Positions 4,490 through 48,764 of a stretch of DNA of 64,000 nt are shown here, one piece after another. The position numbers and the translations under genes are program-made. Source of the DNA: an uncultured Alphaproteobacteria bacterium (GTDB taxonomy: Bacteria; Pseudomonadota; Alphaproteobacteria; GCA-2731375); NCBI GenBank assembly GCA_951812805.1, contig CATOSZ010000003.1:1070557-1134556 (forward strand). The letters are read 5' to 3'. Below the pieces are notes generated by a model. It was not told the origin of the DNA. It saw only the letters and a list, made by a program, of their open reading frames with translations, and ran no database searches. The stretch's first letter is position 1; the number at the start of each line of letters is the position of its first letter.

Positions 4490-4491
4490 AC

Positions 4492-5385: not shown

Positions 5386-5410
5386 GCGGCGCGAGCGCGG
5401 AGAACCAACG

Positions 5411-6586: not shown

Positions 6587-6603
6587 CCCTGGAGCAATCG
6601 ACC

Positions 6604-7809: not shown

Positions 7810-7871
7810 AACCGGAAAACGGTGCCCTTGCCGCTTGGACCCACCGCCCGGTGGGCGTATAAGAGGCCGCC

Positions 7872-8885: not shown

Positions 8886-8929
8886 TGGTCACCCGCCACC
8901 GATACACCCCAACCTGAGCGGAGCGAGAC

Positions 8930-11602
8930 ATGAACGACGAGGCGATGGCAGCGCCCGAGGCGATCCGTCTGGAAGATTACCAACCGCCCGCCTGGCGCAT
9001 CGACGCGGTCTCCCTGACCTTCGACCTGGCGCCCGAGGCGACCCGGGTCGAGAGCCGGCTGACCCTGTCCCGCGCGGGTGACGGACCGCTCCGCCTCGAT
9101 GGCGAGGATCTGCGGCTGCTCACCGTCAAGCTCGACGGCCGCGAACTCGATGCGGGCGAATACGTTGTCGACGGCGAAGGCCTGACGGTGCACGAGCCGC
9201 CGGCGACCTGCGTGCTGGAGACGGTCGTCGAGATCGATCCCCAGGCCAACACCAAGCTCGAGGGCCTCTATCTCTCGAACGCGATCTATTGCACCCAGTG
9301 CGAGGCCGAGGGCTTTCGCCGCATCACCTATTTCCTCGACCGGCCCGACGCGATGACCGTCTTCGAGGTCCGCATCCGGGCCGACGCCGCGGCCTGTCCG
9401 GTGCTGCTCTCGAACGGCAACCTGGTGGAAAGCGGCACGCTGCCCGACGGCCGGCACGAGGCGTTGTGGCACGACCCCTTCCCCAAGCCCGCCTATCTCT
9501 TCGCCCTGGTCGCCGGCCGCCTCGGCAAGGTGGCGGACCGCTTCCGCACCGCGTCCGGGCGTGATGTCGACCTCGCCATCTATGTCGATCCCGGCAACGA
9601 GAACCGGGCCGGATACGCGATGCAGTCGTTGATCCGCTCGATGCGCTGGGACGAGGAGGTCTTCGGCCTGGAATACGACCTCGACCTGTTCAACATCGTC
9701 GCCATCGCCGACTTCAACATGGGCGCGATGGAGAACAAGAGCCTGAACGTCTTCAACGCCAAATACGTGCTGGCCGACCCGGAGACGGCGACGGACCAGG
9801 ATCACGCCTTCATCGAAGCGATCGTCGCGCATGAATATTTCCACAACTGGACCGGCAACCGGGTGACCTGCCGCGACTGGTTCCAGCTGAGCCTGAAGGA
9901 AGGCCTGACGGTCTTTCGCGACCAACAGTTCTCGGCCGACATGCGCTCGGCCCCGGTACAGCGGATCCAGGACGTGCGCGGGCTGCGCCACGCCCAGTTC
10001 CCGGAGGATTCGGGCCCGCTCGCCCATCCGGTGCGACCGGCCTCCTACATCGAGATCAACAATTTCTATACCGCAACCGTCTACGAGAAAGGCGCCGAGG
10101 TCGTCCGCCTGCTGCACACCCTGCTGGGCCGGGAAGGTTTCCGCCGCGGCATGGACCTCTATTTCGAGCGCCACGACGGCCAGGCGGTGACCTGTGACGA
10201 TTTCGCCGCCGCGATGGCGGACGCCAACGACATGGCGCTCGGCGATTTCAAGCTCTGGTATGCCCAGGCGGGCACGCCGGAGGTCACGGTCGAGACGGCG
10301 CACGACGCGGCGGAACGGCGCTTTACCGTCACCCTCACGCAGCACACGCCGCCGACGCCCGGACAGCCGGAGAAGGCGCCGCTGCGTTTGCCGCTCGAGC
10401 TGGGCCTGATCGATCGCGAAGGCGAGGCCCTGGCGCTGCGCTTCGCGGGCGAAGAGGACGCGGCGGGCACCAGCCGGCTCGTGGAACTCGACACGGCCAG
10501 GCGAGACATCGTCTTCGAGGACGTGGCGGCGCCGCCGCTGCTCTCCCTCAACCGTAACTTCACCGCGCCGATCAAACTGAACGACGCCATGACTTCGGCG
10601 GACCGGGCCTTCCTGATGCGCCACGACACGGACCCGTTCAACCGATGGGAAGCCGGCCAGCGCCTGGCCGTGGACGTCCTGCTGGCCCGCGCGCGCGCCT
10701 TCGCCGCCACCGGCCGGGCGACGGCGGGACCGGACGACGCGGCTTTCGTCGAGGCCTTCGCCGCCTGCCTCGCGGACGACGGCGCGGACGATGCCTTCCG
10801 CGCGGAACTGCTGGCCCTGCCGAGCCCGGCCTACCTGGCGGAGCAGATGGCGGAAATCGACGTCGACGGCGTCCATGCGGCCCGGCACGGCCTGATGGCC
10901 GATATCGCCGCCGGCAACGGTGCCGTGCTGCAGGACCTGCACGACCGGTTGGCGTCGGCCGAGCCCTACAGCCCGGACGGGCCGCAGGTCGGCGGGCGGG
11001 CGCTGCGCAACCGGGCACTCGGCTACCTGGCGTACGGGCCGGACGCGGCGGCGGCCGAGGCCTTGCTCGCCGCCCGCTACGGGGCGGCCGACAACATGAC
11101 CGACCGCATGGCGGCCCTCGCCCTGCTGGCCGAGCGGGACGGCGCGGCGGGCGAGGCGGCGCTCGCCGACTTCCACGACCGTTTCCGCGACGACGCCATC
11201 GTCATCGACAAATGGTTCTCCGTGCAGGCGATCTCCTCGCGCTCCGATACGCTGGCGCGGGTGGAGGGCCTGCTGGACCACGCGGCCTTCTCGCTGCGCA
11301 ATCCGAACCGGGTCCGGGCGCTGATCGGGGCGTTCGTGTCGGGCAATCCGTTGCGCTTCCATGCGGCCGACGGCGCCGGTTATGAATTCCTCACCCGGCG
11401 CATCGCCGAGCTCGACCCGCTGAACCCGCAGGTCGCGGCGCGTCTGGTCGCCCCGCTCGGGCGCTGGCGGCGCTTCGATTCCTCTCGGGCCGCGTTGATG
11501 CGCGCCGCGTTGGAACGCATCCTGGCGACGGACGGTCTTTCGAAGGACGTCTTCGAACTGGCCTCCAAATCCCTCGGCGACGCAAAGGACGATGCCGCAT
11601 GA
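8930..11602 (+). CDS. pepN: aminopeptidase N (M1 family, bacterial PepN type)
   Basis: The 890-residue protein is full length for the E. coli-type PepN. It carries the substrate-recognition GAMEN motif at residues 265-269 and the zinc site HEYFHNW at 301-307, with the third ligand in LKEGLTVFRD. The DUF3458-type middle domain and long C-terminal helical domain follow. It removes N-terminal residues from peptides in the cytoplasm as the last step of protein turnover. A GGAG site precedes the ATG. Its last four bases overlap the next gene (ATGA), so the two are translationally coupled. Confidence 0.95.
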   Translation: MNDEAMAAPEAIRLEDYQPPAWRIDAVSLTFDLAPEATRVESRLTLSRAGDGPLRLDGEDLRLLTVKLDGRELDAGEYVVDGEGLTVHEPPATCVLETVVEIDPQANTKLEGLYLSNAIYCTQCEAEGFRRITYFLDRPDAMTVFEVRIRADAAACPVLLSNGNLVESGTLPDGRHEALWHDPFPKPAYLFALVAGRLGKVADRFRTASGRDVDLAIYVDPGNENRAGYAMQSLIRSMRWDEEVFGLEYDLDLFNIVAIADFNMGAMENKSLNVFNAKYVLADPETATDQDHAFIEAIVAHEYFHNWTGNRVTCRDWFQLSLKEGLTVFRDQQFSADMRSAPVQRIQDVRGLRHAQFPEDSGPLAHPVRPASYIEINNFYTATVYEKGAEVVRLLHTLLGREGFRRGMDLYFERHDGQAVTCDDFAAAMADANDMALGDFKLWYAQAGTPEVTVETAHDAAERRFTVTLTQHTPPTPGQPEKAPLRLPLELGLIDREGEALALRFAGEEDAAGTSRLVELDTARRDIVFEDVAAPPLLSLNRNFTAPIKLNDAMTSADRAFLMRHDTDPFNRWEAGQRLAVDVLLARARAFAATGRATAGPDDAAFVEAFAACLADDGADDAFRAELLALPSPAYLAEQMAEIDVDGVHAARHGLMADIAAGNGAVLQDLHDRLASAEPYSPDGPQVGGRALRNRALGYLAYGPDAAAAEALLAARYGAADNMTDRMAALALLAERDGAAGEAALADFHDRFRDDAIVIDKWFSVQAISSRSDTLARVEGLLDHAAFSLRNPNRVRALIGAFVSGNPLRFHAADGAGYEFLTRRIAELDPLNPQVAARLVAPLGRWRRFDSSRAALMRAALERILATDGLSKDVFELASKSLGDAKDDAA

Positions 11603-23174: not shown

Positions 23175-23324
23175 GCAGTGCGTCTCCTCGACTAGGTACC
23201 ATCTTGGAACGGGCCCCGACCGCCGACGGCGGGCAGCGCCCCGATGGGATTTGGTTCCCGGGCCATATGGTAGCGATTGGATCGCGCGGCAACAAATTCG
23301 GGGCCGACGGCGCACCATATTTCG

Positions 23325-23353
23325 TTGTTGTCACCGCAGCGACGGGTTAGGTT
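23325..23353 (+). promoter_or_regulatory. candidate promoter for phnDCEE
   Basis: TTGTTG (23325-23330) and TAGGTT (23348-23353) are separated by 17 bases, about 50 bases before the phnD start. An AGGGGGA ribosome site follows. No Pho-box could be recognised with confidence. Confidence 0.4.
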
Positions 23354-23403
23354 CGCAGCGGACAATCGGAATTGCATCCGGTGAAACGAGGGGGAACCAG
23401 ACC

Positions 23404-24381
23404 ATGCAGATGCCTTCACTCAGTACTTTCGGCGCGCTCGCCGCCGGCGCCCTGATGACGCTCGGCCTCGCCGGGACGGCCGGCGCCCAGGACTGCCCGC
23501 GCAGCTTCCTCGACAAGGCCTATTGCGATTACGACGGCGACCTGGTGGCCGACCTGCCGCTCGACGAGAAGGAATGGAAGGACCCGTCCACCATTATCTT
23601 CTCCTACACCCCCGTCGAGGATCCGGCGGTCTATGCCAAGGTCTGGGACGGCTTCGTCAACCACATGGCGAAAGTGACCGGGCGCAAGGTGGTTTTCTTC
23701 CCCGTGCAGTCCTACGCCGCGCAGTACGAGGCCATGCGCTCCGGCCGCCTGCACATCGCCGGCGTCAACACCGGCGGCAATCCGGTCGCGGTGGCCTGTG
23801 CCGGCCTGGTGCCCTTCGCCATGATGGCCAAGGCGGACAACAGCTTCGGCTACGAGATGGAAATCATCGTGCCGGCCGACAGCCCGTTGAAGTCGCCCGC
23901 CGAACTGAAGGGCAAGACGCTGGCCTTCACCTCGCCAACCTCGAATTCCGGCTTTAAGGCGCCATCCGCCATCCTGAAGGGCGAGTTCGGCCTGGTCGCC
24001 GACAAGGACTTCAAGACGACCTATTCCGGCAAGCACGACAACTCGATCCTCGGCGTCGCCAACAAGGACTACGAGGCGGCGGCGATCGCCAATTCGGTGC
24101 TGGGCCGGATGATCAGCCGCGACGTCGTCAAGGCCGACCAGATCCGCTCGATCTACAAGTCGGGAACCTTCCCGACGACCGGCTACGGCCATGCCCACAA
24201 TTTGCATCCCGCCCTGGTGGCGAAGATCAAACAGGCTTTCTTCTCCTTCAATTGGGTTGGCTCCGAGCTAAAGAAGGAGTTCAAGAAGGAAGACAAGTTC
24301 ATCGCCATCAACCACAAGCACGACTGGGACGTGATCCGGAAGATCGACGCCGCCAACGGCGTGAGCTACGGCTGCAAGTAG
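23404..24381 (+). CDS. phnD: phosphonate-type ABC transporter periplasmic binding protein
   Basis: The 325-residue protein starts with a signal peptide (hydrophobic [14 protein letters not shown], cleavage after GAQ or nearby) and has the PhnD fold: [20 protein letters not shown], the ligand-loop region [19 protein letters not shown], and [12 protein letters not shown]. PhnD proteins bind phosphonates or related phosphate esters in the periplasm. The ATPase and two permease genes follow on the same strand, completing a transporter. No C-P lyase or phosphonatase is visible, so the true ligand could also be phosphite or a phosphoester. Confidence 0.9.
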
Positions 24382-24409
24382 GCGGCTGCGAGTAGGCGGG
24401 GACGACGCG

Positions 24410-25267
24410 ATGCTGCGTCTCGAGGGCTTGCACAAGCGCTATCCCACAGGCGACGTGGCGTTGCAAAGCGTCGACCTGGAGGTGCCCGAAGGCCAGGTCA
24501 TGGCCCTCATCGGGCCCTCCGGCGCCGGCAAGAGCACGCTGATCCGCTGCATCAACCGGCTGGTGGAGCCGACCGCCGGGCGGGTCTTCATCGGCGATGA
24601 AGAGGTGAGCGCGCTCTCCAAACGGCGCCTGCGCCGGGCGCGGCGGCGGATGGGCATGATCTTCCAGGAGTACGCCCTGGTCGAACGGCTGACGGTGATG
24701 GAGAACGTGCTGTCCGGGCGGCTCGGCTATGTCGGCTTCTGGCGCAGCTGGGCCCGGCGCTTTCCCCAGAGCGACGTCGACGAGGCGTTCCGCCTGCTCG
24801 CCCGCGTCGGCCTGGACGAGATGGTCGACAAGCGGGCGGACGAGCTGTCGGGCGGCCAGCGCCAGCGCGTCGGCATCGCCCGGGCGCTGATCCAGGACCC
24901 GGCCTTGCTGCTGGTCGACGAGCCGACCGCCAGTCTCGATCCCAAGACCTCGCGGCAAATCATGCGGCTGATCCGCGAGCTGTGCCAGGAACGCCGCCTG
25001 GCGGCCATCATCAACATCCACGACGTGGCGCTGGCGCAGATGTTCGCCCAGCGCATCGTCGGTCTGCGGCTCGGCGAGATCGTCTACGACGGGCCGACCG
25101 ACGGGCTTGATGCCGCCGTGCTGACCGAGATCTACGGCGAGGAAGACTGGCAGGCCACGATCCGCAAGGACGATGACGACGCGGAGACGGCGGACGACGA
25201 CGACCAGGCCGTCACCGGCCCGCGCGGCCCCACGCTCGACGAAGAGCGGATGGCCGGGATCGGGTAG
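24410..25267 (+). CDS. phnC: phosphonate-type ABC transporter ATP-binding protein
   Basis: The 285-residue ATPase has Walker [10 protein letters not shown] at 35-43, the signature [15 protein letters not shown], Walker [13 protein letters not shown] and an H-loop in [11 protein letters not shown]. It drives import through the two PhnE permeases. The last 30 or so residues form an acidic tail ([14 protein letters not shown]) beyond the usual ATPase end, which is unusual. It starts 28 bases after phnD and ends 6 bases before the first permease gene. Confidence 0.93.
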
Positions 25268-25273
25268 CGGGTC

Positions 25274-26086
25274 ATGAGCCTGGGAGAGGGGATCGCCGCG
25301 GGCCGCCGCTGGCGCAAGCCGCCGCTGATCAAGAATCCGCGCCTGCGTTGGGGCCTGGCGATCTTCGCCGCGCTCTATCTCGCCGCGGCCTTCGGCACCA
25401 TCGAGGTCAACTGGACCCGGGTCTGGGACGGCCTGCCGCGCGGCGAACAGTTCCTGCTCGCCTTCCTGCCGCCGGACTTCGCCACGCGCTGGGACGACAT
25501 CCTCGACGGCATCCTCGAAAGCCTGTGGATGACGGTGACCGCCACCGTCGTCGGCATCGCCATCTCGGTGCCGATCGGCCTCGGTGCCGCCAAGAACATC
25601 GCGCCGGCGCCGGTCTATTACGTCTGCCGCGCCATCGTCGCCGGCTCGCGCAGTTTCCAGGAGATCATCCTGGCGATCTTCTTCGTGAAGCTGTTCGGCT
25701 TCGGCCCCTTCGCCGGCTTCATCACGCTCAGCGTGGCGACCGTCGGCTTCTTCGCCAAGCTGCTGGCCGAGGACATCGAGGCGATGGACTGGCGCCAGGC
25801 CGAGGCGGTGCGCAGCACCGGCGCCGGCTGGTTCCAATGGCTGGAGTATTCCGTCCGCCCGCAGGTCATGCCGCGCTTCATCGGCCTCTCGCTGTACCGG
25901 CTGGACATCAACTTCCGCGAGTCGGCCGTGGTCGGCATCGTCGGCGGCGGCGGCATCGGGGCGACGCTGAACACCGCCTTCGATCGCTACGAATTCGACA
26001 GCGCGGCCGCCATCCTGGTGGTGATCATCGTTCTGGTCATGGGCGCCGAGTACGCCTCCGGCCATATCCGGCGCTGGATGCAGTGA
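25274..26086 (+). CDS. phnE: phosphonate-type ABC transporter permease 1
   Basis: The 270-residue protein has about six membrane segments and the PhnE-type coupling loop EAMDWRQAEAVRSTGAGWFQ, followed by the NFRESAVVGIVGGGGIGATL block typical of this permease class. It forms half of the membrane channel served by PhnC. Its stop shares one base with the start of the second permease (TGATG), so the two are translationally coupled. Confidence 0.92.
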   Translation: MSLGEGIAAGRRWRKPPLIKNPRLRWGLAIFAALYLAAAFGTIEVNWTRVWDGLPRGEQFLLAFLPPDFATRWDDILDGILESLWMTVTATVVGIAISVPIGLGAAKNIAPAPVYYVCRAIVAGSRSFQEIILAIFFVKLFGFGPFAGFITLSVATVGFFAKLLAEDIEAMDWRQAEAVRSTGAGWFQWLEYSVRPQVMPRFIGLSLYRLDINFRESAVVGIVGGGGIGATLNTAFDRYEFDSAAAILVVIIVLVMGAEYASGHIRRWMQ

Positions 26087-26901
26087 TGGTGACGAAACGC
26101 GAAGACGGGAAACAGCTCTGGCGCCGGCGCGCGACGCGAACGCAGCTGGCAATCTGGTTCGCCTGGCTCGTCGGCACGGCGATCTTCGTCTACTGCTTCC
26201 AGCTGATCAGCGAGAAGACGATCTGGTTCTTCGTGCTCGACGCGGGCACCCAGGCGGTCGACCTCGGCTCCCGCATGCTGCCGCCCAACTGGGGCTATAT
26301 GGAGGTGCTCTGGCGCCCGATCTGGGACACCATCAACATCGCCACGCTCGGCACGCTGATGGCCCTGGTGATCGCCGTGCCGGTGGCCTTCCTCGCCGCC
26401 CACAACACCACGCCCTCGGTCACCTTCGTGCGCCCGATCGCCCTGCTGATCATCGTCTCCAGCCGGTCCATCAACTCGCTGATCTGGGCCCTGCTGCTGG
26501 TAGCGATCGTCGGGCCGGGCGTGTTCGCTGGCGTCCTGGCGATCGGCTTCCGCTCCATCGGCTTCTGCGCCAAGTTGCTGTACGAGGCGATCGAGGAGAT
26601 CGATCCCAAGCAGGTCGAGGCGGTCGAGGCGACCGGCGCCGCCCGCACCCAGGTGCTGAGCTACGGCGTGGTGCCGCAGGTCCTGCCGGCGTTTGCCGGC
26701 ATCTCGGTGTTTCGCTGGGACATCAACATCCGCGAATCCACCATCCTCGGCCTGGTCGGCGCCGGCGGAATCGGCATCCAGCTTAGCGCGGCGATCGCCG
26801 AACTCGCCTGGAGCAAGGTGGCGCTGATCCTGCTCGTCATCATCGCCACCGTCGTGGTCAGCGAATGGGTCTCGGCCAAGGTCCGCCACTCGTTCATTTG
26901 A
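26086..26901 (+). CDS. phnE: phosphonate-type ABC transporter permease 2
   Basis: The 271-residue second permease starts at the ATG inside TGATG; an upstream in-frame extension is only the shadow of permease 1. It repeats the same architecture: a coupling loop EEIDPKQVEAVEATGAARTQ and NIRESTILGLVGAGGIGIQL. Paired PhnE proteins form a heterodimeric channel. The glycosyltransferase gene begins 71 bases later and probably belongs to another unit. Confidence 0.92.
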   Translation: MVTKREDGKQLWRRRATRTQLAIWFAWLVGTAIFVYCFQLISEKTIWFFVLDAGTQAVDLGSRMLPPNWGYMEVLWRPIWDTINIATLGTLMALVIAVPVAFLAAHNTTPSVTFVRPIALLIIVSSRSINSLIWALLLVAIVGPGVFAGVLAIGFRSIGFCAKLLYEAIEEIDPKQVEAVEATGAARTQVLSYGVVPQVLPAFAGISVFRWDINIRESTILGLVGAGGIGIQLSAAIAELAWSKVALILLVIIATVVVSEWVSAKVRHSFI

Positions 26902-26972: not shown

Positions 26973-27686
26973 TTGACCGCCCTCTCCCTCGTCATCCCCT
27001 GCTACAACGAGGCGGCGAACCTGCCGCTGCTGATCGGCCGGCTGTCCGAGATAATGACGCGCGACGACGTCGAGGTGGTGCTGGTCGACAACGGCTCGTC
27101 CGACGCCAGCGCGGCGATCCTGACCGAAGCGAGCCGGGCGCACGATTTCCTGGCGACGACACGGGTCGAGGTCAATCAGGGCTATGGCCACGGCATCCTC
27201 GCCGGCCTCGCCGCGGCCCGGGGCGCGGTGCTGGCCTGGACCCATGCGGACATGCAGACGGATCCCGAGGACGCGCTTCGCGGCCTCGCGCTGTTCGAAG
27301 CAGCGGCGGAGCCGGCCCGCCTGTTCGTCAAGGGCCGGCGTTATGGCCGGCCGCTCGGCGATGTCGCCTTCACTGTGGGCATGGCGGGCTTCGAAACCCT
27401 GCTGCTCGGCCGGCCCCTGTGGGACATCAACGCGCAACCCACCATGTTCCCGCGCGCCTTCTACGAGACCTGGCGCGCACCGCCGGGCGATTTCTCCCTC
27501 GACCTCTATGCCTATTACCAGGCGCGGCTCGCCGGCCTGGAGGTCACCCGCTTCCCCGTCCGCTTCGGCGAGCGGGCGCACGGCACCTCGCACTGGAACG
27601 TCGACTGGAAAGCCAAGGTGCGCTTCATCCGCCGCACCATGGGCTATAGCCTGGAGTTGCGCCGACGCCTGAGGGAGGTCGCATGA
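26973..27686 (+). CDS. GT2 family glycosyltransferase (polyprenyl-phosphate sugar synthase-like)
   Basis: The start is TTG at 26973, preceded at good spacing by GGAGG; no ATG fits. The 237-residue protein has the GT-A core LSLVIPCYNEAANLPLLIGR, VVLVDNGSSDASA and a DxD-like HADMQTDPED. There is no membrane anchor. The overall pattern is that of dolichol-phosphate mannose synthase-like enzymes that load a sugar onto a polyprenyl phosphate. It overlaps the next gene by 4 bases, opening a five-gene tight cluster that ends with uppP. The sugar is unknown. Confidence 0.82.
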   Translation: MTALSLVIPCYNEAANLPLLIGRLSEIMTRDDVEVVLVDNGSSDASAAILTEASRAHDFLATTRVEVNQGYGHGILAGLAAARGAVLAWTHADMQTDPEDALRGLALFEAAAEPARLFVKGRRYGRPLGDVAFTVGMAGFETLLLGRPLWDINAQPTMFPRAFYETWRAPPGDFSLDLYAYYQARLAGLEVTRFPVRFGERAHGTSHWNVDWKAKVRFIRRTMGYSLELRRRLREVA

Positions 27687-28267
27687 TCCTGGTCCGCCAT
27701 CGCCGGAACACGCCCGAGGAGCTGGCCGCGACGCCGCGGGAATACGGCATCGAGGTCGACATCCGCAGCCAGGGCGCGGATTTGGTCATCCACCACGATC
27801 CCTTCGTCCATGGCGGGCGCTTCGAGGACTGGCTGGCCGGCTATGCGCACGGCACCCTCATCGCCAACGTGAAGGAGGAGGGGCTGGAGGAACGGGTGTT
27901 GGCCGCGCTTGCGCGGCGGGGCATCGAGGATTTCTTCTTCCTCGATCAATCCTTCCCCTTCCTGATCCGCACCGCGCGTAGCGGGGAACGGCGCACGGCC
28001 GTCCGCGTCTCCGAATATGAATCGATCGACACCGCGATGAGCCTCGCCGGCCGGGTCGAATGGGTCTGGGTCGACTGTTTCACGAAATTCCCCCTGTCGG
28101 GGGACGCGGCGGCCCGCCTCCAGGCCGCGGGCTTCAAGCTGTGCCTGGTCTCACCCGAATTGCAGGGCCGCGACAACGCCGAGATCGCCGCGATGCGCGA
28201 CCTGCTGGCCGCCCGCGATATCCAGGCCGAGGCGGTCTGCACCAAGGCGCCGGAGCTCTGGCGATGA
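27683..28267 (+). CDS. GDPD-like phosphodiesterase-fold protein
   Basis: The 194-residue protein resembles a shortened glycerophosphodiester phosphodiesterase barrel: His6-Arg7 and Asn9-Thr10 (HRRNT), the acidic pair Glu24 and Asp26 (EVDIRS), and HHDP at 37-40 match the metal and catalytic positions in order. It is shorter than typical GDPDs (about 240-300 residues). There is no signal peptide, so it should act in the cytoplasm, unlike many GDPDs. It overlaps the GT2 gene by 4 bases, and the membrane fusion protein starts 4 bases later. Its role could be hydrolysis of a phosphodiester-linked intermediate. Confidence 0.65.
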   Translation: MILVRHRRNTPEELAATPREYGIEVDIRSQGADLVIHHDPFVHGGRFEDWLAGYAHGTLIANVKEEGLEERVLAALARRGIEDFFFLDQSFPFLIRTARSGERRTAVRVSEYESIDTAMSLAGRVEWVWVDCFTKFPLSGDAAARLQAAGFKLCLVSPELQGRDNAEIAAMRDLLAARDIQAEAVCTKAPELWR

Positions 28268-28271
28268 GCGG

Positions 28272-30359
28272 ATGAGCGGGTTTCGTGAGATCGGCCGCCA
28301 GCCGCTGTTCCGCATCGGCCTGGCGGCGAAGCTGGTCCTCGTCGCCCTGGTGGTACCCGAGGTGCAGCAGGAGTGGTTTCTGCCCTTCGTCAGCTTCATG
28401 CCGACCGCACCGAGCTTCGACCCCTGGACCGCCTTCGTTGCCGGCGGCGGCGATACGCTGGCTTTTCCTTACGGTGTCGTCATGGCACTGGCCCACCTGC
28501 CGACGGTGGCGCTCGGCCTCCTCGCCGACAAGCTCACCGGGCTCGACTACCTGGCGGGCGTCGGCTTCCGGGCGAGCTTGCTGCTGGCCGACATCGCGGC
28601 GTTGTCACTGCTCGCCCGGCTCGCGGGCGATGGCAGCCTGCGCGCCGTGCTGGTGTTCTACTGGCTCTCGCCGTTCTCCCTCTACGTCACCTATTGGCAT
28701 GGGCAGACCGACGTGGTGCCGGTGCTGCTGCTGCTGGCCGCCCTGCTCTACCTGAAGGACGCGCGCGCCCACGCGGCCGGCGTCGCCACCGGCCTGGCGA
28801 TGGTCGCCAAGCTGTCGATGGGGCTCGCCGCGCCGTTCCTGCTGCTCTACCTCTGGGTCAACAAGCGGACCCGCGATCTCGCCATCCCCTTCGCCGCGGC
28901 GGCGGCCGGCGCCCTGCTGCTGGCCCAGGGACCCTGGCTCGCCTCCCCCGGCTTTCGCGAGATGGTCTTCGGCAGCCGGGAGATCGCCAAGGTCTATCAG
29001 CTGAGCCTGGAACTGGCGCCGGGCCTGTCGCTCTACCTAACGCCCTTGATCTACCTGCTATTGCTCTATTTCGTCTGGCGCTTTCGCCGGCAGAACTTCG
29101 AGCTGCTTCTGGCCGTGCTCGGCGTGGTCTTCTTCGCCGTCGTGCTGATGACCCCCGCCTCGGTCGGCTGGTACCTCTGGGTGCTGCCGTTCCTGGCCTT
29201 GCACCAGGCCCGAGCCGGCGCCAGCGCCGTGTTCCTGACCACGGTCTTCGCAGCATTGTTGATCTCCTACCACCTGCTCTATTCGCAGGGGGCACAGGTC
29301 CCGGCCCTCGGCCTCGACTACACCTGGCAGGGGGCGGAGATCGCGGCCTACGTCTCGAACCACGCCCGCTCCCTCTGGCTCACCCTGATCGGCGCCTTCG
29401 GCATCGTGCTGGCGGTCGGCATGTACCGGCGCGGCATTACCGACAACGATTTCCATCGCCTCGGCCGGCGACCCCTGGCCCTGGCGATCGCCGGTGACAG
29501 CGGTGCCGGCAAGAGCACGCTGGCGCTGGCACTCGCCGGTCTGTTCGGCGAGCGGGCGGTCACCCACGTCGCGGGCGACGACTACCACCTCTGGGAACGG
29601 CAGGAGCCGATGTGGCGGGCATTGACCCATCTCGATCCGCGAGCCAACGACCTGCAGCGCTTTACCCAAGACGCGCTCGGCATGATCGAGGGCCGACGCG
29701 TCGTCGCCCGGCGTTACGATCACGGTACCGGCCGCTTCACCAGCCCCGAGGTGATCCCGGCCAACGACGTCGTCATCGTCTCCGGCCTGCACGCGCTCTA
29801 TCCCCCGGAGCTGCGCGCGCGCCTCGACCTTCGCATCTTCATCGGTGCCGAGGAGGCCCTGCGCCGGCACTGGAAGATCGCCCGCGACGTCACCGAACGG
29901 GGACATGACGCCGACACGGTCGTCGCCTCGATGGACCGGCGCACACCCGACGGCGCGCGCTACATCGCACCGCAGGCCGATCACGCCGACCTGGTCTTCA
30001 CCCTGCTACCGGTCGACCCGCGACTGCTGGAGGGTGAAGCCCCCCTCGGCGAGGATCAGGTCAAGCTTCGCGTACGGCTGCGCGAGGGGCTCTATTACGA
30101 ACAGCTCTCCCGCGTGCTGATCGGCATCTGCGGCCTGAGCGTCGAGGTCGAAGCGATCGACCAGGACGCCACCGTCGTCTTCGTCGTCGACGGCGAGGTG
30201 GCGGCCGAGGACATCGCGCTGGCGGCAGGCATGCTGGTGCCGCGTCTCGACGAACTGCTCGACCGGGCACCGCTTTGGCACGGGCGCATGGCCGGCATCA
30301 TGCAGCTGGTCTGCCTGATGCAGATCGACCAGGCCCTGAGGGAACGGACATGGCGGTGA
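28272..30359 (+). CDS. GT-C-like polytopic membrane protein fused to a uridine-kinase-type P-loop kinase
   Basis: Residues 1-390 contain about ten to twelve membrane segments with the PFSLYVTYWHGQTDVVPVLL loop seen in GT-C/DUF2029-type mannosyltransferases, which use lipid-linked sugars. From residue 400 the protein becomes a soluble kinase of the uridine kinase/phosphoribulokinase class: Walker A GDSGAGKS at 408-415, then GDDYHLWERQEP and the VIVSGLHALYPPELR strand. The junction is in frame with no stop or shift, so the fusion looks genuine. The first ATG (28264) is cut by a stop; the ATG at 28272 is used. The kinase end overlaps the HAD gene by 10 bases. Confidence 0.78.
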   Translation: MSGFREIGRQPLFRIGLAAKLVLVALVVPEVQQEWFLPFVSFMPTAPSFDPWTAFVAGGGDTLAFPYGVVMALAHLPTVALGLLADKLTGLDYLAGVGFRASLLLADIAALSLLARLAGDGSLRAVLVFYWLSPFSLYVTYWHGQTDVVPVLLLLAALLYLKDARAHAAGVATGLAMVAKLSMGLAAPFLLLYLWVNKRTRDLAIPFAAAAAGALLLAQGPWLASPGFREMVFGSREIAKVYQLSLELAPGLSLYLTPLIYLLLLYFVWRFRRQNFELLLAVLGVVFFAVVLMTPASVGWYLWVLPFLALHQARAGASAVFLTTVFAALLISYHLLYSQGAQVPALGLDYTWQGAEIAAYVSNHARSLWLTLIGAFGIVLAVGMYRRGITDNDFHRLGRRPLALAIAGDSGAGKSTLALALAGLFGERAVTHVAGDDYHLWERQEPMWRALTHLDPRANDLQRFTQDALGMIEGRRVVARRYDHGTGRFTSPEVIPANDVVIVSGLHALYPPELRARLDLRIFIGAEEALRRHWKIARDVTERGHDADTVVASMDRRTPDGARYIAPQADHADLVFTLLPVDPRLLEGEAPLGEDQVKLRVRLREGLYYEQLSRVLIGICGLSVEVEAIDQDATVVFVVDGEVAAEDIALAAGMLVPRLDELLDRAPLWHGRMAGIMQLVCLMQIDQALRERTWR

Positions 30360-31129
30360 AACGGCGAGCGGCGGGCACGTTCGAGCGCGCACCCAAGGCG
30401 GTGATTTTCGACCTGGATGATACGCTCTATGCCTATGCCCCGGCGCACGAGGCGGCGACGGCCATCGTCGAGGCCAAGGCCGTCGGGCTTTTGGGCGTCG
30501 AGCGCGAGGCCTTCGCCGAGGCTCTCGCGCGCGGCCGGGATGCGACGAAGGACCTGCTCGGCCAGACCGCCAGCGCGCATAGCCGCCTGCTGTACTTCCA
30601 CCGGGCGATCGAACTGCTCGGCATGAAGAGCCGGCCGCTCACCAGCCTGGACCTCGAGCAGACCTACTGGCGCGCCTTCCTCGCCAACGCCCGCCTGTTC
30701 CCCGACGTCGAGGACTTCATCCGCGACCTGCGCGGCGCCGGTATCGCCACCGCCGTGCTGACCGACCTCACCGCCCAGATTCAGTTCCGCAAGCTGGTCT
30801 ATTTCGGGCTGGAGGGCGCCTTCGACTATGTCGTGACGTCGGAGGAGGCCGGCGCCGACAAGCCCGACAACGCGCCCTTCCGCCTCGTGCTCGACAAGCT
30901 TGCCGTCGCCCCGGACGCGGCTTGGCTGATCGGCGACAACCCGGCGAGCGACATCGAGGGTGCGCGACGCCTCGCGATCCCGGCGTTGCAACGCCTCCCC
31001 GCCGGCGCGCGGATCGGTGAGGGTGACCGGGCGCCCGACGCGACGTTCGAGAATTTTGGCGAGCTCCGAGAGCTGCTGGGCGACCTGGTCGGGGAAGCGG
31101 GGCCGGACGAGCGGCAGGACGGAGATTGA
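30350..31129 (+). CDS. HAD family hydrolase (probable phosphatase)
   Basis: The ATG at 30350, after GAGGGAA, gives 259 residues. The nucleophile pair is Asp21 and Asp23 in IFDLDDTLYAYAP; motif II lies in TAVLTDLTAQIQ, and the motif IV region reads LIGDNPASDIEGARR. The cap is helical (subfamily I), which fits small phosphometabolites. It overlaps the kinase fusion by 10 bases, so kinase and phosphatase are made together; it may remove the phosphate that the kinase adds, or act on the product. Substrate unknown. Confidence 0.82.
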   Translation: MAVKRRAAGTFERAPKAVIFDLDDTLYAYAPAHEAATAIVEAKAVGLLGVEREAFAEALARGRDATKDLLGQTASAHSRLLYFHRAIELLGMKSRPLTSLDLEQTYWRAFLANARLFPDVEDFIRDLRGAGIATAVLTDLTAQIQFRKLVYFGLEGAFDYVVTSEEAGADKPDNAPFRLVLDKLAVAPDAAWLIGDNPASDIEGARRLAIPALQRLPAGARIGEGDRAPDATFENFGELRELLGDLVGEAGPDERQDGD

Positions 31130-31200
31130 CGAATCGAATCGGCGACCACGTGCTATAAGCCTCGTTGCGCGAGGGTCGGGGGCAACGGCACGGTCGGGAC

Positions 31201-32019
31201 ATGATGGACGGAGAACTCGGCCTGGTGCAGATCGTCACCCTGGCGCTGATCCAGGGCGTGACGGAATTTCTGCCGATCAGTTCCTCCGCGCATCTGATCC
31301 TGGTCCCGCTCGTCGCGGACTGGCCCGACCAGGGCCAGGAGATCGACATCGCCGTGCACGTCGGTACCCTCGGCGCGGTGATGATCTATTTCCGCGACGA
31401 GGTCCGCCGCCTCACCGGCGCGCTGTTCGCGGCACTCGGCCGACGACGGACCGTGGACACGCCGCTGCTCGGCCTGCTGATCGTCGCCACCGTGCCGCTC
31501 ATCTGCGCGGGCGTCGTGCTAACCCGTTTCGATATCGACGACTGGCTTCGCGCCATCGAGGTCATCGCCTGGGCGACCATCGTCTTCGCCGTTCTGCTCT
31601 ACCTCGTCGATCTTTCGCCGCGAACCCAGGGTACGGTCCGCGAGCTCGGCTGGAAGGGCGCGCTGGCGATCGGCCTGGTCCAGTGTTTCGCCCTGATACC
31701 GGGGACTAGCCGCGCCGGTGCCTGCGTCATCGGCGCCCGGATGCTGGGCATGGAACGCGCGGAGGCCGCGCGTTTTTCCATGCTGCTGTCGATCCCCGCC
31801 ATCCTGGCGGCGGGCGGCTACGCGAGCGTCAAGATCGCCGCCACGGGCAGTCTGGACTTCGGCCTGGCCGCGCTCACCGCCGGCGCGCTCGCCTTCGTCG
31901 CGGCGCTGGCCGGCATCGCCTTCCTGATGTTCTGGGTGCGGCGCTCCAGCTACACGATCTTCGTGGTTTATCGGCTGATGCTCGGCGGCGGCCTGCTGTG
32001 GTGGGTCTACGGCGGCTGA
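31201..32019 (+). CDS. uppP: undecaprenyl-diphosphatase
   Basis: This 272-residue integral membrane protein has the BacA/UppP signatures QGVTEFLPISSSAH (18-31) and PGTSRAGACVIGARMLG (the usual Ser after PGTSR is Ala). It recycles undecaprenyl diphosphate to the monophosphate carrier needed for peptidoglycan and glycan export. ATGs at 31201 and 31204 are both possible, and the ribosome site is weak. It lies 71 bases behind the HAD gene on the same strand, which links lipid-carrier recycling to the upstream glycan-like cluster. Confidence 0.93.
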   Translation: MMDGELGLVQIVTLALIQGVTEFLPISSSAHLILVPLVADWPDQGQEIDIAVHVGTLGAVMIYFRDEVRRLTGALFAALGRRRTVDTPLLGLLIVATVPLICAGVVLTRFDIDDWLRAIEVIAWATIVFAVLLYLVDLSPRTQGTVRELGWKGALAIGLVQCFALIPGTSRAGACVIGARMLGMERAEAARFSMLLSIPAILAAGGYASVKIAATGSLDFGLAALTAGALAFVAALAGIAFLMFWVRRSSYTIFVVYRLMLGGGLLWWVYGG

Positions 32020-32600: not shown

Positions 32601-34144
32601 CAGCCTGTCGGACTCGGGCATGCAAGGATTGGTAAGATTGGCTTGGCGGGCGTCGATGTCATGGATTTACCCCCATGAAGTTGCGAACGCGGGTTGGCCC
32701 GCCCGTTCAGGCGTGGCTGAGGACGAACATCCGCTTGATGTTCCAGGAGAGCGTGGCCAAGGTCCATTCCCCCTTCGCCTTGTCGAGGCCGCGCAGGCTG
32801 AACTGACGCAAGCCCATCACCGATTTGATGATGCCGAACACCGGCTCCGGCGTCTGCTTGCGAAGCGCGTAGAGCGCCCGGCCCTCGGGTGTGGCCAGGC
32901 GATGGCACATCGCCTCGAGCGGCGTCGGATCCTCGGGCGCTGGCGGCGCCTCGGCGAAGCGGTCCCGCCAGGAAAGATGGTGGTGCTCCCGGCCGAGCGC
33001 GATCAGCGGCGCGATCTCCGCTTCCCCGCAGGCCTCGACGTTGGCCTGGCTGAAGTAGCCGCTGTCCGCCAACAGGGTCTCGACCTCGCCAAGCCCGTCC
33101 GGCAGGCCGGCGAGTGCTTCGAGCGTCGGTTCGATCTGCTGCTTGTCGTTCGCCGCCTGCACCACGTCGGCGCTGACCACCAGCAGGCTGCCGGCGGCCA
33201 CCGCAGCCTGGGCGTTGTAGCACTGCTCGAAGCCGCCGCCGGCCACCGGCATGATGCGCGAGTCCGGGTCCGTCAGGTTGACCTGGTCCTTCGCCCGTGG
33301 CCCCGGCTCCGGCGGCTTCGGTGGCCGCCCGCCCGGCTTGCGGCCGGTCCGCGTTTCCTTCGCCTCGCGGGCTGCCAGCTTCTCTTCGTACTCCGCCTGC
33401 TCCCGCGCATGACGCTCGGCCGCCCGCGCCTCGATCTCCGCCTTCGCCGCGGCGATCGCCGCCAGCCGGTCCTCGCGCCGTGCCAGCTCCTCCGGCACGC
33501 TCATGCCGTCGGGAACCTCGGACCGGTCCGCCGCTTCCGCCAACGCCATCAACTCCGCCACCTCGGCCCGCAGCCGGGCTTCGATCTCGCCCGCACGCTG
33601 CCACGACAGGGCGCTGTGCCGGCTCGCGTCGGCATGGATCTTCGTCCCGTCCAGCGCCACCGTGCCCAGTTGCAGCATGCCGGCCTGCCGCGCCAGCAGC
33701 AGAACCTGCACGAACAGCCCCTCGATCAGCGGCAGGAAGCGACGGCGGAACGTGGCGATCGTGTCGTGGTCGGGGTGGTCGTTTGCCGCGATGAAGCGGA
33801 AGGCCACCGAATCATAGCTCGCCCGCTCCAGCTTCCGGCTGGAATGCACCCCCGTCGCGTAGCCGTAGATCAGCAGGCCCAGCAGGACGCTCGGGTGATG
33901 CGCCGCCGAGCCCGAACCACGATAGGCCTTCACGAACGCAGAGAGATCCAGCTGCTCCAGCACATCGACCACGAAGCGCGCCAGATGACGATCAGGCAGC
34001 CATTCGTCCACCGAAGGCGGCAGAAGATAGCTGGTCTCCCGGTCAACCTGTCGAAAGTTGCTCATCACAAAATCACCGCGCAGGAGAGAATCAGACCGTG
34101 ACAGTGAATCTCATCTCGAAACTCGGCTCAAGTCCGACAGGCTG
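32601..34144 (-). mobile_element. IS1182-type insertion sequence
   Basis: The element is 1544 bases long with perfect 14-base terminal inverted repeats (CAGCCTGTCGGACT at 32601-32614, its complement at 34131-34144) and some further imperfect pairing inward. It is flanked by the 4-base palindrome CTAG on both sides, read as a target duplication. It holds one intact transposase gene on the minus strand. The intact ends and full-length transposase suggest a recent insertion. Confidence 0.9.
32707..34065 (-). CDS. IS1182 family transposase
   Basis: The 452-residue transposase has an N-terminal DUF772-type domain (LPPSVDEWLPDRHLARFVVD, and a HHPSVLLGLLIYGYATGV helix) and a DDE catalytic domain: Asp in VALDGTKIHADAS, Asp in LLADSGYFSQANV and Glu in PEPVFGIIKS. 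A charged coiled-coil insertion of about 90 residues lies between the first and second Asp. Family length is normal and no frameshift is visible, so it should be active. A GTG precedes the ATG at 34065 by one codon. Confidence 0.92.
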   Translation of the reverse strand: MSNFRQVDRETSYLLPPSVDEWLPDRHLARFVVDVLEQLDLSAFVKAYRGSGSAAHHPSVLLGLLIYGYATGVHSSRKLERASYDSVAFRFIAANDHPDHDTIATFRRRFLPLIEGLFVQVLLLARQAGMLQLGTVALDGTKIHADASRHSALSWQRAGEIEARLRAEVAELMALAEAADRSEVPDGMSVPEELARREDRLAAIAAAKAEIEARAAERHAREQAEYEEKLAAREAKETRTGRKPGGRPPKPPEPGPRAKDQVNLTDPDSRIMPVAGGGFEQCYNAQAAVAAGSLLVVSADVVQAANDKQQIEPTLEALAGLPDGLGEVETLLADSGYFSQANVEACGEAEIAPLIALGREHHHLSWRDRFAEAPPAPEDPTPLEAMCHRLATPEGRALYALRKQTPEPVFGIIKSVMGLRQFSLRGLDKAKGEWTLATLSWNIKRMFVLSHA

Positions 34145-46803: not shown

Positions 46804-46860
46804 GCCGGCCTCGCCCTGGGCTAGACTGATGCCAGGGCGATGACACCAGGGAGCAAGGGC

Positions 46861-48129
46861 ATGGCGGTACTGCTGGGGGCGATCGCGGACGACGTCACGG
46901 GGGCCACCGACCTGGCGAACACCCTGGTGCGCCAGGGCATGTCGACGGTGCAGCTGTTCGGCGCACCCGCCGCGGACCTGCCCGTCCCCGAGGTCGATGC
47001 CGTGGTGGTCGCGCTGAAAAGCCGGACGATCCCCGCCGGCGAGGCGATCGCGCAATCGCGACAAGCGCTCGACTGGCTGCGCGGCGCGGGCGCCCGGCAG
47101 ATCTTCTTCAAATATTGTTCGACCTTTGATTCGACCCCCACCGGCAACATCGGGCCCGTCGCCGACGCCCTGCTCGACGCCCTGGAGGCCGACTTCACCA
47201 TCGCCTGCCCGGCCTTTCCCGAGACCGGACGGACGATCTGCCATGGCTATCTGTTCGTCGGCACGGAGCTGTTGTCGGAAAGCGGGATGAAGGACCATCC
47301 CCTAACGCCGATGACGGATCCGAGCCTGGTCCGCGTGCTGGCGGCGCAGACACCCCGGCCCGTCGGTTTAGTCCGCTACGACACCGTCGCCGAGGGGCCG
47401 GGCGCCATCCGCGAGGCGTTCGCCGCGCTCCGCGCCGAGGGCAAGGCGCACGCCATCGTCGACGCCCTGAGCGACCGGGACCTGATGGCGATCGGCGAGG
47501 CCGCGGCGGACCTGGCATTGATCACCGGGGGCTCCGGCGTTGCCCTGGGCCTGCCAGCGAACTTTCGCCGCCGGGGCCTGCTGCCGGAAGGCCGGATCTC
47601 CGACACCCTGCCGACAATCGCGGGGCGGGAGGCCGTGCTGGCCGGGTCCTGCTCGCGCGCCACCTTGGGGCAAATCGAAGCGATGCGGGCGATCCGTCCG
47701 CATCTGGCGTTGGACCCGCTGCGCCTCGCCGCCGGCGAGAACGTCGCCGGCGAGGCGCTCGCCTGGGCCGAGGGGCATCTCGACGACGGTCCGGTGTTGA
47801 TCTATTCGAGCGCGGCGCCCGACGCCCTGGGTGCGATCCAGGAGAAACTCGGACGCGAGGCGGCCGGCGACATGATCGAGGCGGCGATGGCCGAGATCGC
47901 CCGGGGCCTGGTCGCCCGGGGCGTGCGACGCCTGGTCGTCGCGGGCGGCGAAACCTCCGGCGCCGTGGTCCAGGGGCTCGGCCTCGCCGGCATCCAAATC
48001 GGGCCGCAGATCGACCCGGGCGTGCCCTGGACGGCCAGCCTGGGCGAGACGCCCTTGGCGCTGGCCTTGAAGTCCGGCAACTTCGGCGGCCCCGACTTCT
48101 TCACCAAGGCCTTCGAGGTGTTGCCATGA
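46861..48129 (+). CDS. otnK: 3-oxo-tetronate kinase (four-carbon acid sugar kinase family)
   Basis: The ATG at 46861 after GGGAG is preferred over an ATG at 46840. The 422-residue protein has the N-terminal DUF1537 domain with GAIADDVTGATDLANTL and the C-terminal nucleotide-binding domain with VAGGETSGAVVQGLGL. OtnK phosphorylates 3-oxo-tetronate at O4 in the degradation of four-carbon acid sugars. The next gene encodes the matching decarboxylase with a 4-base overlap. The epimerase and dehydrogenase normally found with it are not adjacent. Confidence 0.88.
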   Translation: MAVLLGAIADDVTGATDLANTLVRQGMSTVQLFGAPAADLPVPEVDAVVVALKSRTIPAGEAIAQSRQALDWLRGAGARQIFFKYCSTFDSTPTGNIGPVADALLDALEADFTIACPAFPETGRTICHGYLFVGTELLSESGMKDHPLTPMTDPSLVRVLAAQTPRPVGLVRYDTVAEGPGAIREAFAALRAEGKAHAIVDALSDRDLMAIGEAAADLALITGGSGVALGLPANFRRRGLLPEGRISDTLPTIAGREAVLAGSCSRATLGQIEAMRAIRPHLALDPLRLAAGENVAGEALAWAEGHLDDGPVLIYSSAAPDALGAIQEKLGREAAGDMIEAAMAEIARGLVARGVRRLVVAGGETSGAVVQGLGLAGIQIGPQIDPGVPWTASLGETPLALALKSGNFGGPDFFTKAFEVLP

Positions 48130-48764
48130 ACGAATCCCGATTACGCGAAGAGATCACGCGGTACGGTCGTTCGATTTTCGATCGCGGGCTGACGGGCGGT
48201 TCCACCGGCAACATTTCGGTTCGGGTCGAGGACGGATTCCTGATGACGCCGACCGGCTCCTCCCTCGGCACCCTGGATCCGGCGAGAATTTCCAAACTGG
48301 ACGATTCCGGCGGGCACGTCTCCGGCGACGCGCCGACGAAGGAAGCGTTCCTGCACATCGCGATGTATCGCCAGAGGCTGGCGGCCGGCGCCGTCGTGCA
48401 TCTGCATTCCACGCATTCCGTCGCCGTCGGCTGCCTCGCCGACGTCGATCCCGAGGACGTGTTGCCGCCGCTCACCGCCTATTACGTCATGCGGATCGGA
48501 CGGCTGCCCCTGGTCCCGTTCTTTCCGCCGGGCGACCCCGCGCTGGCCGACGCGGTCGGCGACTATGCCGCACGCCATCACGCGGTCCTGCTGGCCAATC
48601 ACGGGCCCGTGGTGGCGGGCAGCGGTCTTTCCGCCGCCGTCGACGCGGTGGAGGAGCTGGAGGAGACGGCGCGTTTGCACCTGCTGCTGCAGGGCCATCG
48701 CACCCGTCCCCTGACCGCCGCCCAGGCCGACGCGGTGCGCGACGCCTTTCCCGTGCGGGCCTGA
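48126..48764 (+). CDS. otnC: 3-oxo-tetronate 4-phosphate decarboxylase (class II aldolase fold)
   Basis: The 212-residue protein has the class II aldolase/adducin fold: GLTGGSTGNISVRVEDGF binds phosphate, AVVHLHSTHSVAVG supplies two metal His, and ANHGPVVAG the third. Glu in TKEAFLHIAMY is the general acid/base. It releases CO2 from 3-oxo-tetronate 4-phosphate to give dihydroxyacetone phosphate. It overlaps otnK by four bases, which confirms the pair. Confidence 0.87.
   Translation: MNESRLREEITRYGRSIFDRGLTGGSTGNISVRVEDGFLMTPTGSSLGTLDPARISKLDDSGGHVSGDAPTKEAFLHIAMYRQRLAAGAVVHLHSTHSVAVGCLADVDPEDVLPPLTAYYVMRIGRLPLVPFFPPGDPALADAVGDYAARHHAVLLANHGPVVAGSGLSAAVDAVEELEETARLHLLLQGHRTRPLTAAQADAVRDAFPVRA

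Follow-up and report, generated by a model that had tools for sequence, protein, structure and literature searches.

A run of four genes in the stretch of DNA analysed (the window, 64,000 nucleotides) is, judging from sequence comparison, the core of a cassette that moves between distant bacteria by means of plasmids and prophages. The genes encode a GT2 glycosyltransferase, a protein of glycerophosphodiester phosphodiesterase (GDPD) fold, a fusion of a GT-C domain with a kinase domain, and a HAD hydrolase. Very probably, the cassette adds an unusual sugar-derived group to the surface polysaccharide by way of kinase, phosphatase and aldolase steps reminiscent of ribulose-bisphosphate metabolism. 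It appears somewhat probable that it does so as a Gtr-type three-component decoration of an envelope glycan, with a precursor route of its own that would proceed via ketose-bisphosphate and ketose-1-phosphate chemistry.

Organization of the gene run

ORF analysis of the window placed the four genes in a single overlapping run at 26973-31129 (Table 1). It had been claimed from the letters alone that these genes overlap or abut, and the ORF coordinates and domain matches agree with this: the GT2 and GDPD-fold genes overlap by 4 nt, the fusion gene starts after a 4-nt gap, and the ATG of the HAD gene lies 10 nt inside the fusion gene.

Table 1. Features of the cassette core and its neighbours (positions in the window)
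Feature	Position	Strand	Basis
phnD-phnC-phnE-phnE, phosphonate-type ABC transporter	23320..26901	+	ORFs, domain matches
GT2, GtrB/DPM1/ArnC-like polyprenyl-phosphate glycosyltransferase, TTG start	26973..27686	+	PF00535
GDPD-fold (TIM barrel) protein, probable phosphodiesterase-type precursor-pathway enzyme	27683..28267	+	AlphaFold model
GT-C (GT87/PIG-M-like)::phosphoribulokinase-like kinase fusion, 695 aa	28272..30359	+	PF00485, GT87
Membrane GT-C domain of the fusion, residues 1-395	28272..29456	+	GT87, GPI mannosyltransferase 1 matches
Phosphoribulokinase-like kinase domain of the fusion, residues 400-582	29469..30017	+	PF00485
HAD-IA phosphatase	30350..31129	+	PF00702, NF053830
uppP, undecaprenyl-diphosphate phosphatase; neighbour outside the cassette	31201..32019	+	PF02673

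The gene uppP follows after a 71-nt gap, and its product matches PF02673 at 6e-67. The sequence-only reading had counted UppP as part of the system; it was rejected as a cassette member because the window genome has no second copy of uppP and the gene is flanked by other genes in nine genomes of the same family. On the other side, the phn transporter genes end 71 nt upstream of the GT2 gene on the same strand and are possibly cotranscribed with the cassette, and they were not seen in the other cassette loci. A scan for promoters and terminators gave no signal above shuffles. Just downstream, at 32707-34068, there is a transposase-like ORF.

Distribution and mobility of the cassette

The core, in the order GT2-GDPD-GT-C::kinase-HAD, was found to be contiguous in 12 loci, whose carriers include an Azospirillum plasmid, an E. 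coli IncR plasmid, Hirschia pHbal01 and two viral contigs, of which one has the cassette next to tail-fibre genes. In two draws of genomes (372 of the class and 396 of the phylum), the full-length fusion and the close GDPD family coincided in 5 of 5 fusion genomes per draw (Fisher p ~1e-10). Considering this co-occurrence and the same order in distant genomes, it may be concluded that the cluster reflects more than chance. The gene order, for which a survey of genomes had been proposed, was thus conserved, and homologues recur side by side in distant genomes, plasmids and viral contigs rather than being scattered. When 5426 E. coli genomes were searched at the DNA level, which divergent copies would escape, the cassette was detected on two plasmids only.

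In fuller loci, the core is joined by GtrA, a dual nucleotidyltransferase and a class II aldolase. The latter two were present in the same stretch in 10 of the 12 core loci (the window and L049 being the exceptions) and likewise in L002, L037 and the partial Treponema contig L003. GtrA was encoded between the nucleotidyltransferase and the GT2 in L036, L044, L045 and L094. L044 has polysaccharide-related neighbours, namely gmd and genes for GDP-fucose synthase and an ABC transporter. L094 adjoins baseplate-wedge and tail-fibre genes, where phages usually carry their O-antigen conversion genes. All 10 class II aldolases tested, which came from the fuller loci and not from the window, carry three zinc-binding His residues and the aldolase-type Glu, a pattern as in FucA/RhaD and unlike AraD.

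In the window genome, the dual nucleotidyltransferase was not found in a search with positive controls, nor was the cassette-type aldolase in a search without a positive control; therefore, the pathway as drawn below is incomplete there, and this genome may hold a reduced or differently fed version. ORF and domain analysis found no GtrA among the cluster genes. A class II aldolase at 48126-48764 was considered as the missing enzyme and set aside, since it scored only 31.9 bits to the cassette family. Its ORF overlaps the end of a gene resembling four-carbon acid-sugar kinase.

The precursor enzymes also occur as a viral set without the glycosyl-transfer part. Among the other viral contigs, the kinase, GDPD and nucleotidyltransferase were each present in 21 of 21, the aldolase in 20 of 21 and a small HAD in 17 of 21. 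The kinase is fused to the aldolase in six viral contigs. In a further locus, L089, kinase and aldolase are replaced by a 1293-aa protein that combines a P-loop motif at its N terminus with a class II FBA domain and ribulose-phosphate 3-epimerase, beside the HAD, nucleotidyltransferase, GT2 and GDPD genes. Cyanophages S-SM2 and Bellamy have kept the nucleotidyltransferase, aldolase, HAD and GDPD, and the kinase is absent; their hosts form ribulose 1,5-bisphosphate (RuBP) with their own phosphoribulokinase (PRK).

Domain assignments and active sites

The GT2 protein matches PF00535 (1.2e-19) and has no membrane helices. Its best NCBIfam family was ArnC, below the cut-off, and profile matches were to ArnC, DPM synthase and sll0501. 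It also matched PHROG 841 (GtrB-like, O-antigen conversion) at 2.9e-17, and the GtrA of L094 likewise matched a PHROG family annotated for O-antigen conversion. Identity to the GT2 proteins of the other loci first aligned was 47-59%. The GtrB-type GT2 of a Gtr three-component system is thus present in the window.

The GDPD-fold protein gave no Pfam or NCBIfam matches and no useful sequence match to UgpQ or the PDB, and its fold was visible only in the AlphaFold model (pLDDT 86.4), which matches glycerophosphodiester phosphodiesterases with Z ~17 over 185-188 residues. H6-R7, E24-D26, H38-D39 and K64 are invariant in A6 and A11, so that the GDPD signature His pair, E-x-D and Lys are kept (H6, E24, D26, H38, K64). 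At what appears by motif to be the position of the third metal-ligand Glu (E-x-K), the cassettes have N-x-K and the viral forms H-x-K; the automatic UgpQ alignment is poor there. The protein is probably a phosphodiesterase-type enzyme of the precursor pathway.

The GT-C part of the fusion scored 24.8 bits to GT87 (cut-off 25) and gave a profile match to GPI mannosyltransferase 1 (4.5e-7). Its model (pLDDT mostly 65-90) was matched by Foldseek to GPI mannosyltransferase I with Dol-P-Man (9wno, TMt 0.64). By homology only, this domain would be a transferase using a polyprenyl-P-sugar.

The model is weak in the kinase part (pLDDT ~30-68), so the claims on the kinase rest on sequence. This domain is predicted to be PRK-like: it matches PF00485 at 1.3e-35 (123.5 bits, cut-off 22), its closest PDB profile match was a cyanobacterial PRK (1.7e-58), and it scored 193.5 bits to PRK07429, below the cut-off of 236. 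D436, H439, R443, Y482, H484, K535, R538, D539 and R543 are invariant in 12 of 12 fusions and were aligned to solved PRKs; their roles in the ribulose 5-phosphate site are established for PRK. The Walker-B Glu is replaced by Ser in 11 of 12 fusions and by Ile in L037, and the Ser of the Walker-A GKS by Asp in 11 of 12, the window fusion keeping GKST. Owing to the Glu-to-Ser and Ser-to-Asp replacements, the chemistry or substrate of the kinase may have shifted. A dead kinase is unlikely, since the P-loop and substrate-site residues are kept.

The HAD protein matches PF00702 (4.3e-22). Its best NCBIfam family was NF053830 (ribulose-1,5-bisphosphate 5-phosphatase) with 182.9 bits, followed by a family with 94 bits; the HADs, at 182.9 and 162.6 bits, do not reach the curated cut-off of 330, and NF053830 is still their best family.

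Proposed pathway and alternatives

Domain make-up, conserved order, mobility and active-site residues were read from sequences, and from these we infer every reaction, substrate and acceptor. Through the GT2, polyprenyl phosphate would receive a group from a nucleotide-activated donor; a flippase, which is GtrA in the fuller loci, would turn the lipid-linked group over, and the GT-C domain would pass it to a glycan outside the membrane. The substrate of the kinase is probably a ketopentose 5-phosphate, either ribulose 5-phosphate or something close to it, and its product the 1,5-bisphosphate, from which the HAD enzyme would remove the 5-phosphate to leave a ketose 1-phosphate. In the fuller loci, the aldolase would then work in ketose 1-phosphate/DHAP chemistry and the dual nucleotidyltransferase would activate the product; the GDPD-fold enzyme may act on a phosphodiester intermediate. 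The transferred group could be a ketopentose-, C3- or C2-derived residue. An aldolase that consumes ketose 1-phosphate fits awkwardly with direct nucleotidylation of ketose 1-phosphate. Lipid-carrier sugar transfer to the envelope by a GT-C enzyme, together with a kinase and phosphoester chemistry, had already been suggested for the window genes, and domain matches and the recurrent gene set support it. Xylulose O-antigen as the product was set aside: searches of the open literature gave no lead, and the DNA search of E. coli genomes showed the cassette on two plasmids only.

It is unlikely that the route instead runs through an aldose, with the kinase acting on C1 of an aldopentofuranose 5-phosphate, the HAD removing the 5-phosphate, the nucleotidyltransferase forming an NDP-pentofuranose and the GT2 making polyprenyl-P-pentofuranose, while the role of the aldolase is just to supply or edit the pentose. 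Such a pentose counterpart of the kinase-phosphatase-nucleotidyltransferase logic of ADP-heptose would suit the co-occurrence of these three enzymes and the best curated GT2 match, as ArnC handles a pentose, and transfer of lipid-linked pentofuranose by GT-C enzymes is established (PMC11127046). However, the PRK site binds a ketose phosphate, class II aldolases use ketose 1-phosphates, and the nearly constant presence of the aldolase and its viral fusions to the kinase suggest consecutive steps.

Similarly unlikely is a route in which the kinase, HAD and aldolase have no other role than to set free glycolaldehyde (or its phosphate) or DHAP, and a C2/C3 phosphate, activated by the nucleotidyltransferase, becomes a small glycan substituent. 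Conversion of RuBP via ribulose 1-phosphate to DHAP and glycolaldehyde was demonstrated in haloarchaea (PMC9700705), the aldolase-type Glu is present, and the substrates of GDPD enzymes are glycerophosphodiesters; but DHAP is available without a special pathway, the normal cargo of a GT2/GtrA/GT-C chain is a glycosyl group, and neither a reductase nor a dehydrogenase is constantly present.

It is highly improbable that unrelated envelope and metabolic genes came together in the window by chance, for example with a phn operon reading into uppP. The phn genes and uppP are such unrelated neighbours, and a transposase-like ORF is close by, but the four core genes are contiguous in distant genomes, plasmids and viral contigs.

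Comparison with known systems

One close counterpart of the cassette is GtrABC O-antigen glucosylation by temperate phages of Shigella and Salmonella, which shares the GT2 loading polyprenyl phosphate, the GtrA flippase, the GT-C enzyme and, for L094, the prophage location beside tail genes. Unlike GtrABC, the cassette adds a kinase, HAD, GDPD-fold protein, nucleotidyltransferase and aldolase, its GT-C bears a kinase domain, its GT2 is without the GtrB membrane anchor, and the window genes have no adjacent GtrA.

The pentofuranose system of Citrobacter youngae O1/O2 also combines a lipid-linked donor, a GT-C and a HAD phosphatase in a probable extracytoplasmic decoration with a pentose-derived group, but that system charges PRPP directly onto the lipid and relies on a MATE flippase and GT136 (PMC11127046), whereas the cassette has a GT2, GtrA, a GT87/PIG-M-like GT-C and a PRK-like kinase. 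Neither the polyprenyl phosphoribose synthase nor the MATE flippase family was found among the window cluster proteins with Pfam and NCBIfam. The non-carboxylating pentose bisphosphate pathway of halophilic archaea likewise uses a HAD-superfamily RuBP phosphatase and then a class II ribulose-1-phosphate aldolase; however, it is catabolic, obtains the bisphosphate through ribose-1-phosphate kinase and an isomerase (PMC9700705), and has no PRK-like kinase, nucleotidyltransferase, GDPD or glycosyltransferase. Calvin-cycle PRK of the cyanobacterial type agrees with the kinase domain in fold and in substrate-site residues, whereas the cassette kinase is fused to a GT-C or an aldolase, has Ser for the Walker-B Glu, and sits in envelope-glycan and viral gene sets.

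The sequence-only reading had matched these parts to no known system, and no description of this gene set was found in the open full-text literature searched. The precursor module is undescribed in that literature, and the decoration itself would be Gtr-like.

Implications

More tentatively, bacteria, plasmids and phages may use a PRK-like kinase to make RuBP or a close analogue, and the HAD, aldolase, GDPD-fold enzyme and nucleotidyltransferase may convert it to a new activated donor for surface glycans; this would be a sugar-bisphosphate pathway that belongs neither to carbon fixation nor to nucleoside breakdown. If this is true, the kinase-less cyanophages would draw the bisphosphate from the Calvin cycle of the host. 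The cassette offers a testable function for the viral gene families PHROG 3980, 13212 and 34507, which are catalogued with none. The cassette would represent an apparently unnamed surface-glycan modification on plasmids and prophages, tied to PRK-like chemistry familiar from carbon fixation, and it points to an activated donor undescribed in the literature searched. Such surface-glycan changes typically alter phage adsorption and antigenicity.

Organization and conservation of the cassette

The GT2, GDPD-like, fusion, HAD and uppP genes, which the sequence-only reading had joined into a five-gene envelope pathway, were re-found as a run on one strand, and the GT2, HAD, UppP and kinase-domain assignments were confirmed with Pfam and NCBIfam. 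Inclusion of uppP in the system was not upheld. UppP was the sole BacA-type copy in the genome carrying the window, the surroundings of its gene differed in nine genomes of the same family, and uppP was not next to the core run in the other loci read. Therefore, UppP is only a neighbour of the cassette.

Features of the cassette region and of two related loci
Locus	Feature	Position	Strand	Basis or remark
Window	phnD-phnC-phnE-phnE (phn-type ABC transporter)	23320-26901	same as run	ends 71 nt upstream of GT2
Window	GT2	26973-27686	same as run	Pfam, NCBIfam
Window	GDPD-fold protein, 194 aa	27683-28267	same as run	structure model; no Pfam or NCBIfam family
Window	fusion, 695 aa	28272-30359	same as run	PRK/uridine kinase domain behind GT87-like membrane part (Pfam, NCBIfam)
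Window	HAD hydrolase	30350-31129	same as run	Pfam, NCBIfam
Window	uppP	31201-32019	same as run	71 nt past HAD; Pfam, NCBIfam
Window	transposase-like ORF	32707-34068	-	by appearance; just past uppP, between cassette region and tsaD/hemC-like genes
Window	four-carbon acid-sugar kinase-like gene, then class II aldolase	46840-48764		otn-like pair
L089 (genome G405)	1293-aa protein	3474-7355		
L090	GDPD, GT2, dual nucleotidyltransferase	4306-10264		SAR11-like relative, without fusion; FGGY kinase and RhaA-like isomerase genes between GT2 and nucleotidyltransferase

When gene order was surveyed across genomes, GT2-GDPD-fusion-HAD was found contiguously, in one order, in twelve loci (the window, L034-L036, L044-L049, L093 and L094). 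With gene order and context read directly, this core is a conserved unit. Locus L002 had GT2-fusion-HAD, and its GDPD relative was divergent and lay farther along; L037 had GT2-GDPD-fusion. The fusion was absent from other genomes of the order; its distribution is therefore patchy. In the class and phylum samples, the full-length fusion and the close GDPD family co-occurred in the same genomes, except that G037 and G405 had the GDPD without this fusion. The phn transporter is possibly cotranscribed with the cassette; no such genes were seen at other cassette loci.

A class II aldolase and a two-domain nucleotidyltransferase were present in 10 of the 12 contiguous loci and also in L002, L037 and the partial Treponema contig L003, where the nucleotidyltransferase was split into two genes. 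The ten aldolases compared, from cassettes and from viral contigs, all had the FucA/RhaD catalytic Glu, not the AraD Asp, and three Zn-binding His. In the class sample, every genome in which the full two-domain nucleotidyltransferase was found also had either the cassette or its GDPD-GT2 remainder; genome G441 encoded the nucleotidyltransferase elsewhere. It was not found in the window genome (98.5% complete assembly), for which all five positive controls were detected. Therefore, either the window carries a reduced version of the cassette or a nucleotidyltransferase copy was missed.

Predicted functions of the cassette proteins

The window GT2 resembled ArnC, DPM synthase and sll0501, and its length was too small for their C-terminal membrane helices. 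The model of the 194-aa protein (pLDDT 86, built from an alignment of 18 sequences) matched glycerophosphodiester phosphodiesterases with Z of about 17 over 185-188 residues. The GT-C part matched GPI mannosyltransferase 1 in sequence (4.5e-7) and the GPI mannosyltransferase I Dol-P-Man complex in fold; both matches are to enzymes that use lipid-phosphate sugars. The kinase domain was closest to cyanobacterial phosphoribulokinases (1.7e-58). D436, H439, R443, Y482, H484, K535, R538, D539 and R543 were invariant across 12 fusions; in PRK, the catalytic Asp and residues that contact ribulose 5-phosphate are among these positions. Ser replaced the Walker-B Glu in 11 of the 12 fusions, as was the Walker-A Ser by Asp, with the window as the exception in the latter case. 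The best curated family for the HAD was RuBP 5-phosphatase, characterised in haloarchaea (PMC9700705); at 182.9 bits against a cut-off of 330 (next family, 94), the HAD is not classed in this family.

In the best reading, all reactions of which we infer, the kinase would convert a ketopentose 5-phosphate to the 1,5-bisphosphate, and the HAD would convert the latter to a ketose 1-phosphate. Aldol chemistry by the aldolase of the fuller loci and nucleotide activation would follow; GT2 would then load the activated group on polyprenyl phosphate, and the lipid-linked group would be flipped and transferred by the GT-C part. The rivals to this ketopentose sequence would run through an aldopentofuranose or through C2/C3 compounds.

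GtrABC has the same transfer logic but lacks precursor enzymes. Parallels to the Citrobacter pentofuranose system (PMC11127046) lie in the lipid-linked donor, the HAD and the GT-C principle; that system, unlike the cassette, begins at PRPP and uses other families. The haloarchaeal pathway (PMC9700705) shares HAD and aldolase chemistry with the proposal but is catabolic. No description of this gene set was found in the open full-text literature (subscription papers and preprints lay outside its scope), including by searches directed at these parts in combination.

Viral and mobile occurrences

In all 21 further viral contigs, several of them near-identical copies, a PRK-like kinase, a GDPD-like protein and a nucleotidyltransferase lay within several kilobases, with a class II aldolase in 20 and a small HAD in 17. 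Kinase and aldolase formed a single protein in six (L106, L108-L111 and L113). The precursor set thus also exists without the glycosyl-transfer part. Cyanophages S-SM2 and Bellamy had the nucleotidyltransferase, aldolase, HAD and GDPD, and no PRK-like kinase was present near these genes; their Synechococcus hosts produce RuBP as part of carbon fixation. Among annotated phage records, no full match to the kinase-containing proteins was found. The L089 protein combined an N-terminal P-loop motif with class II fructose-bisphosphate-aldolase and ribulose-phosphate 3-epimerase domains, and its gene neighboured HAD, nucleotidyltransferase, GT2 and GDPD genes. A small module, nucleotidyltransferase-GDPD-HAD-nucleotidyltransferase in variable order plus a cupin-like gene, recurred in L085, L086 and L087.

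Azospirillum brasilense plasmid p5 carried the full set alongside gmd, GDP-L-fucose synthase and ABC transporter genes; the set also occurred on Hirschia baltica pHbal01, in two viral contigs and on an E. coli IncR plasmid that has IS26 close by. The E. coli plasmid records found with it numbered two in all. In one of the viral contigs, L094, the cassette adjoined baseplate-wedge and tail-fibre genes, and PHROG families named O-antigen conversion matched the window GT2 and the L094 GtrA. Because phage seroconversion genes usually lie beside such tail genes and belong to such families, an envelope-glycan role of the cassette is well supported by context.
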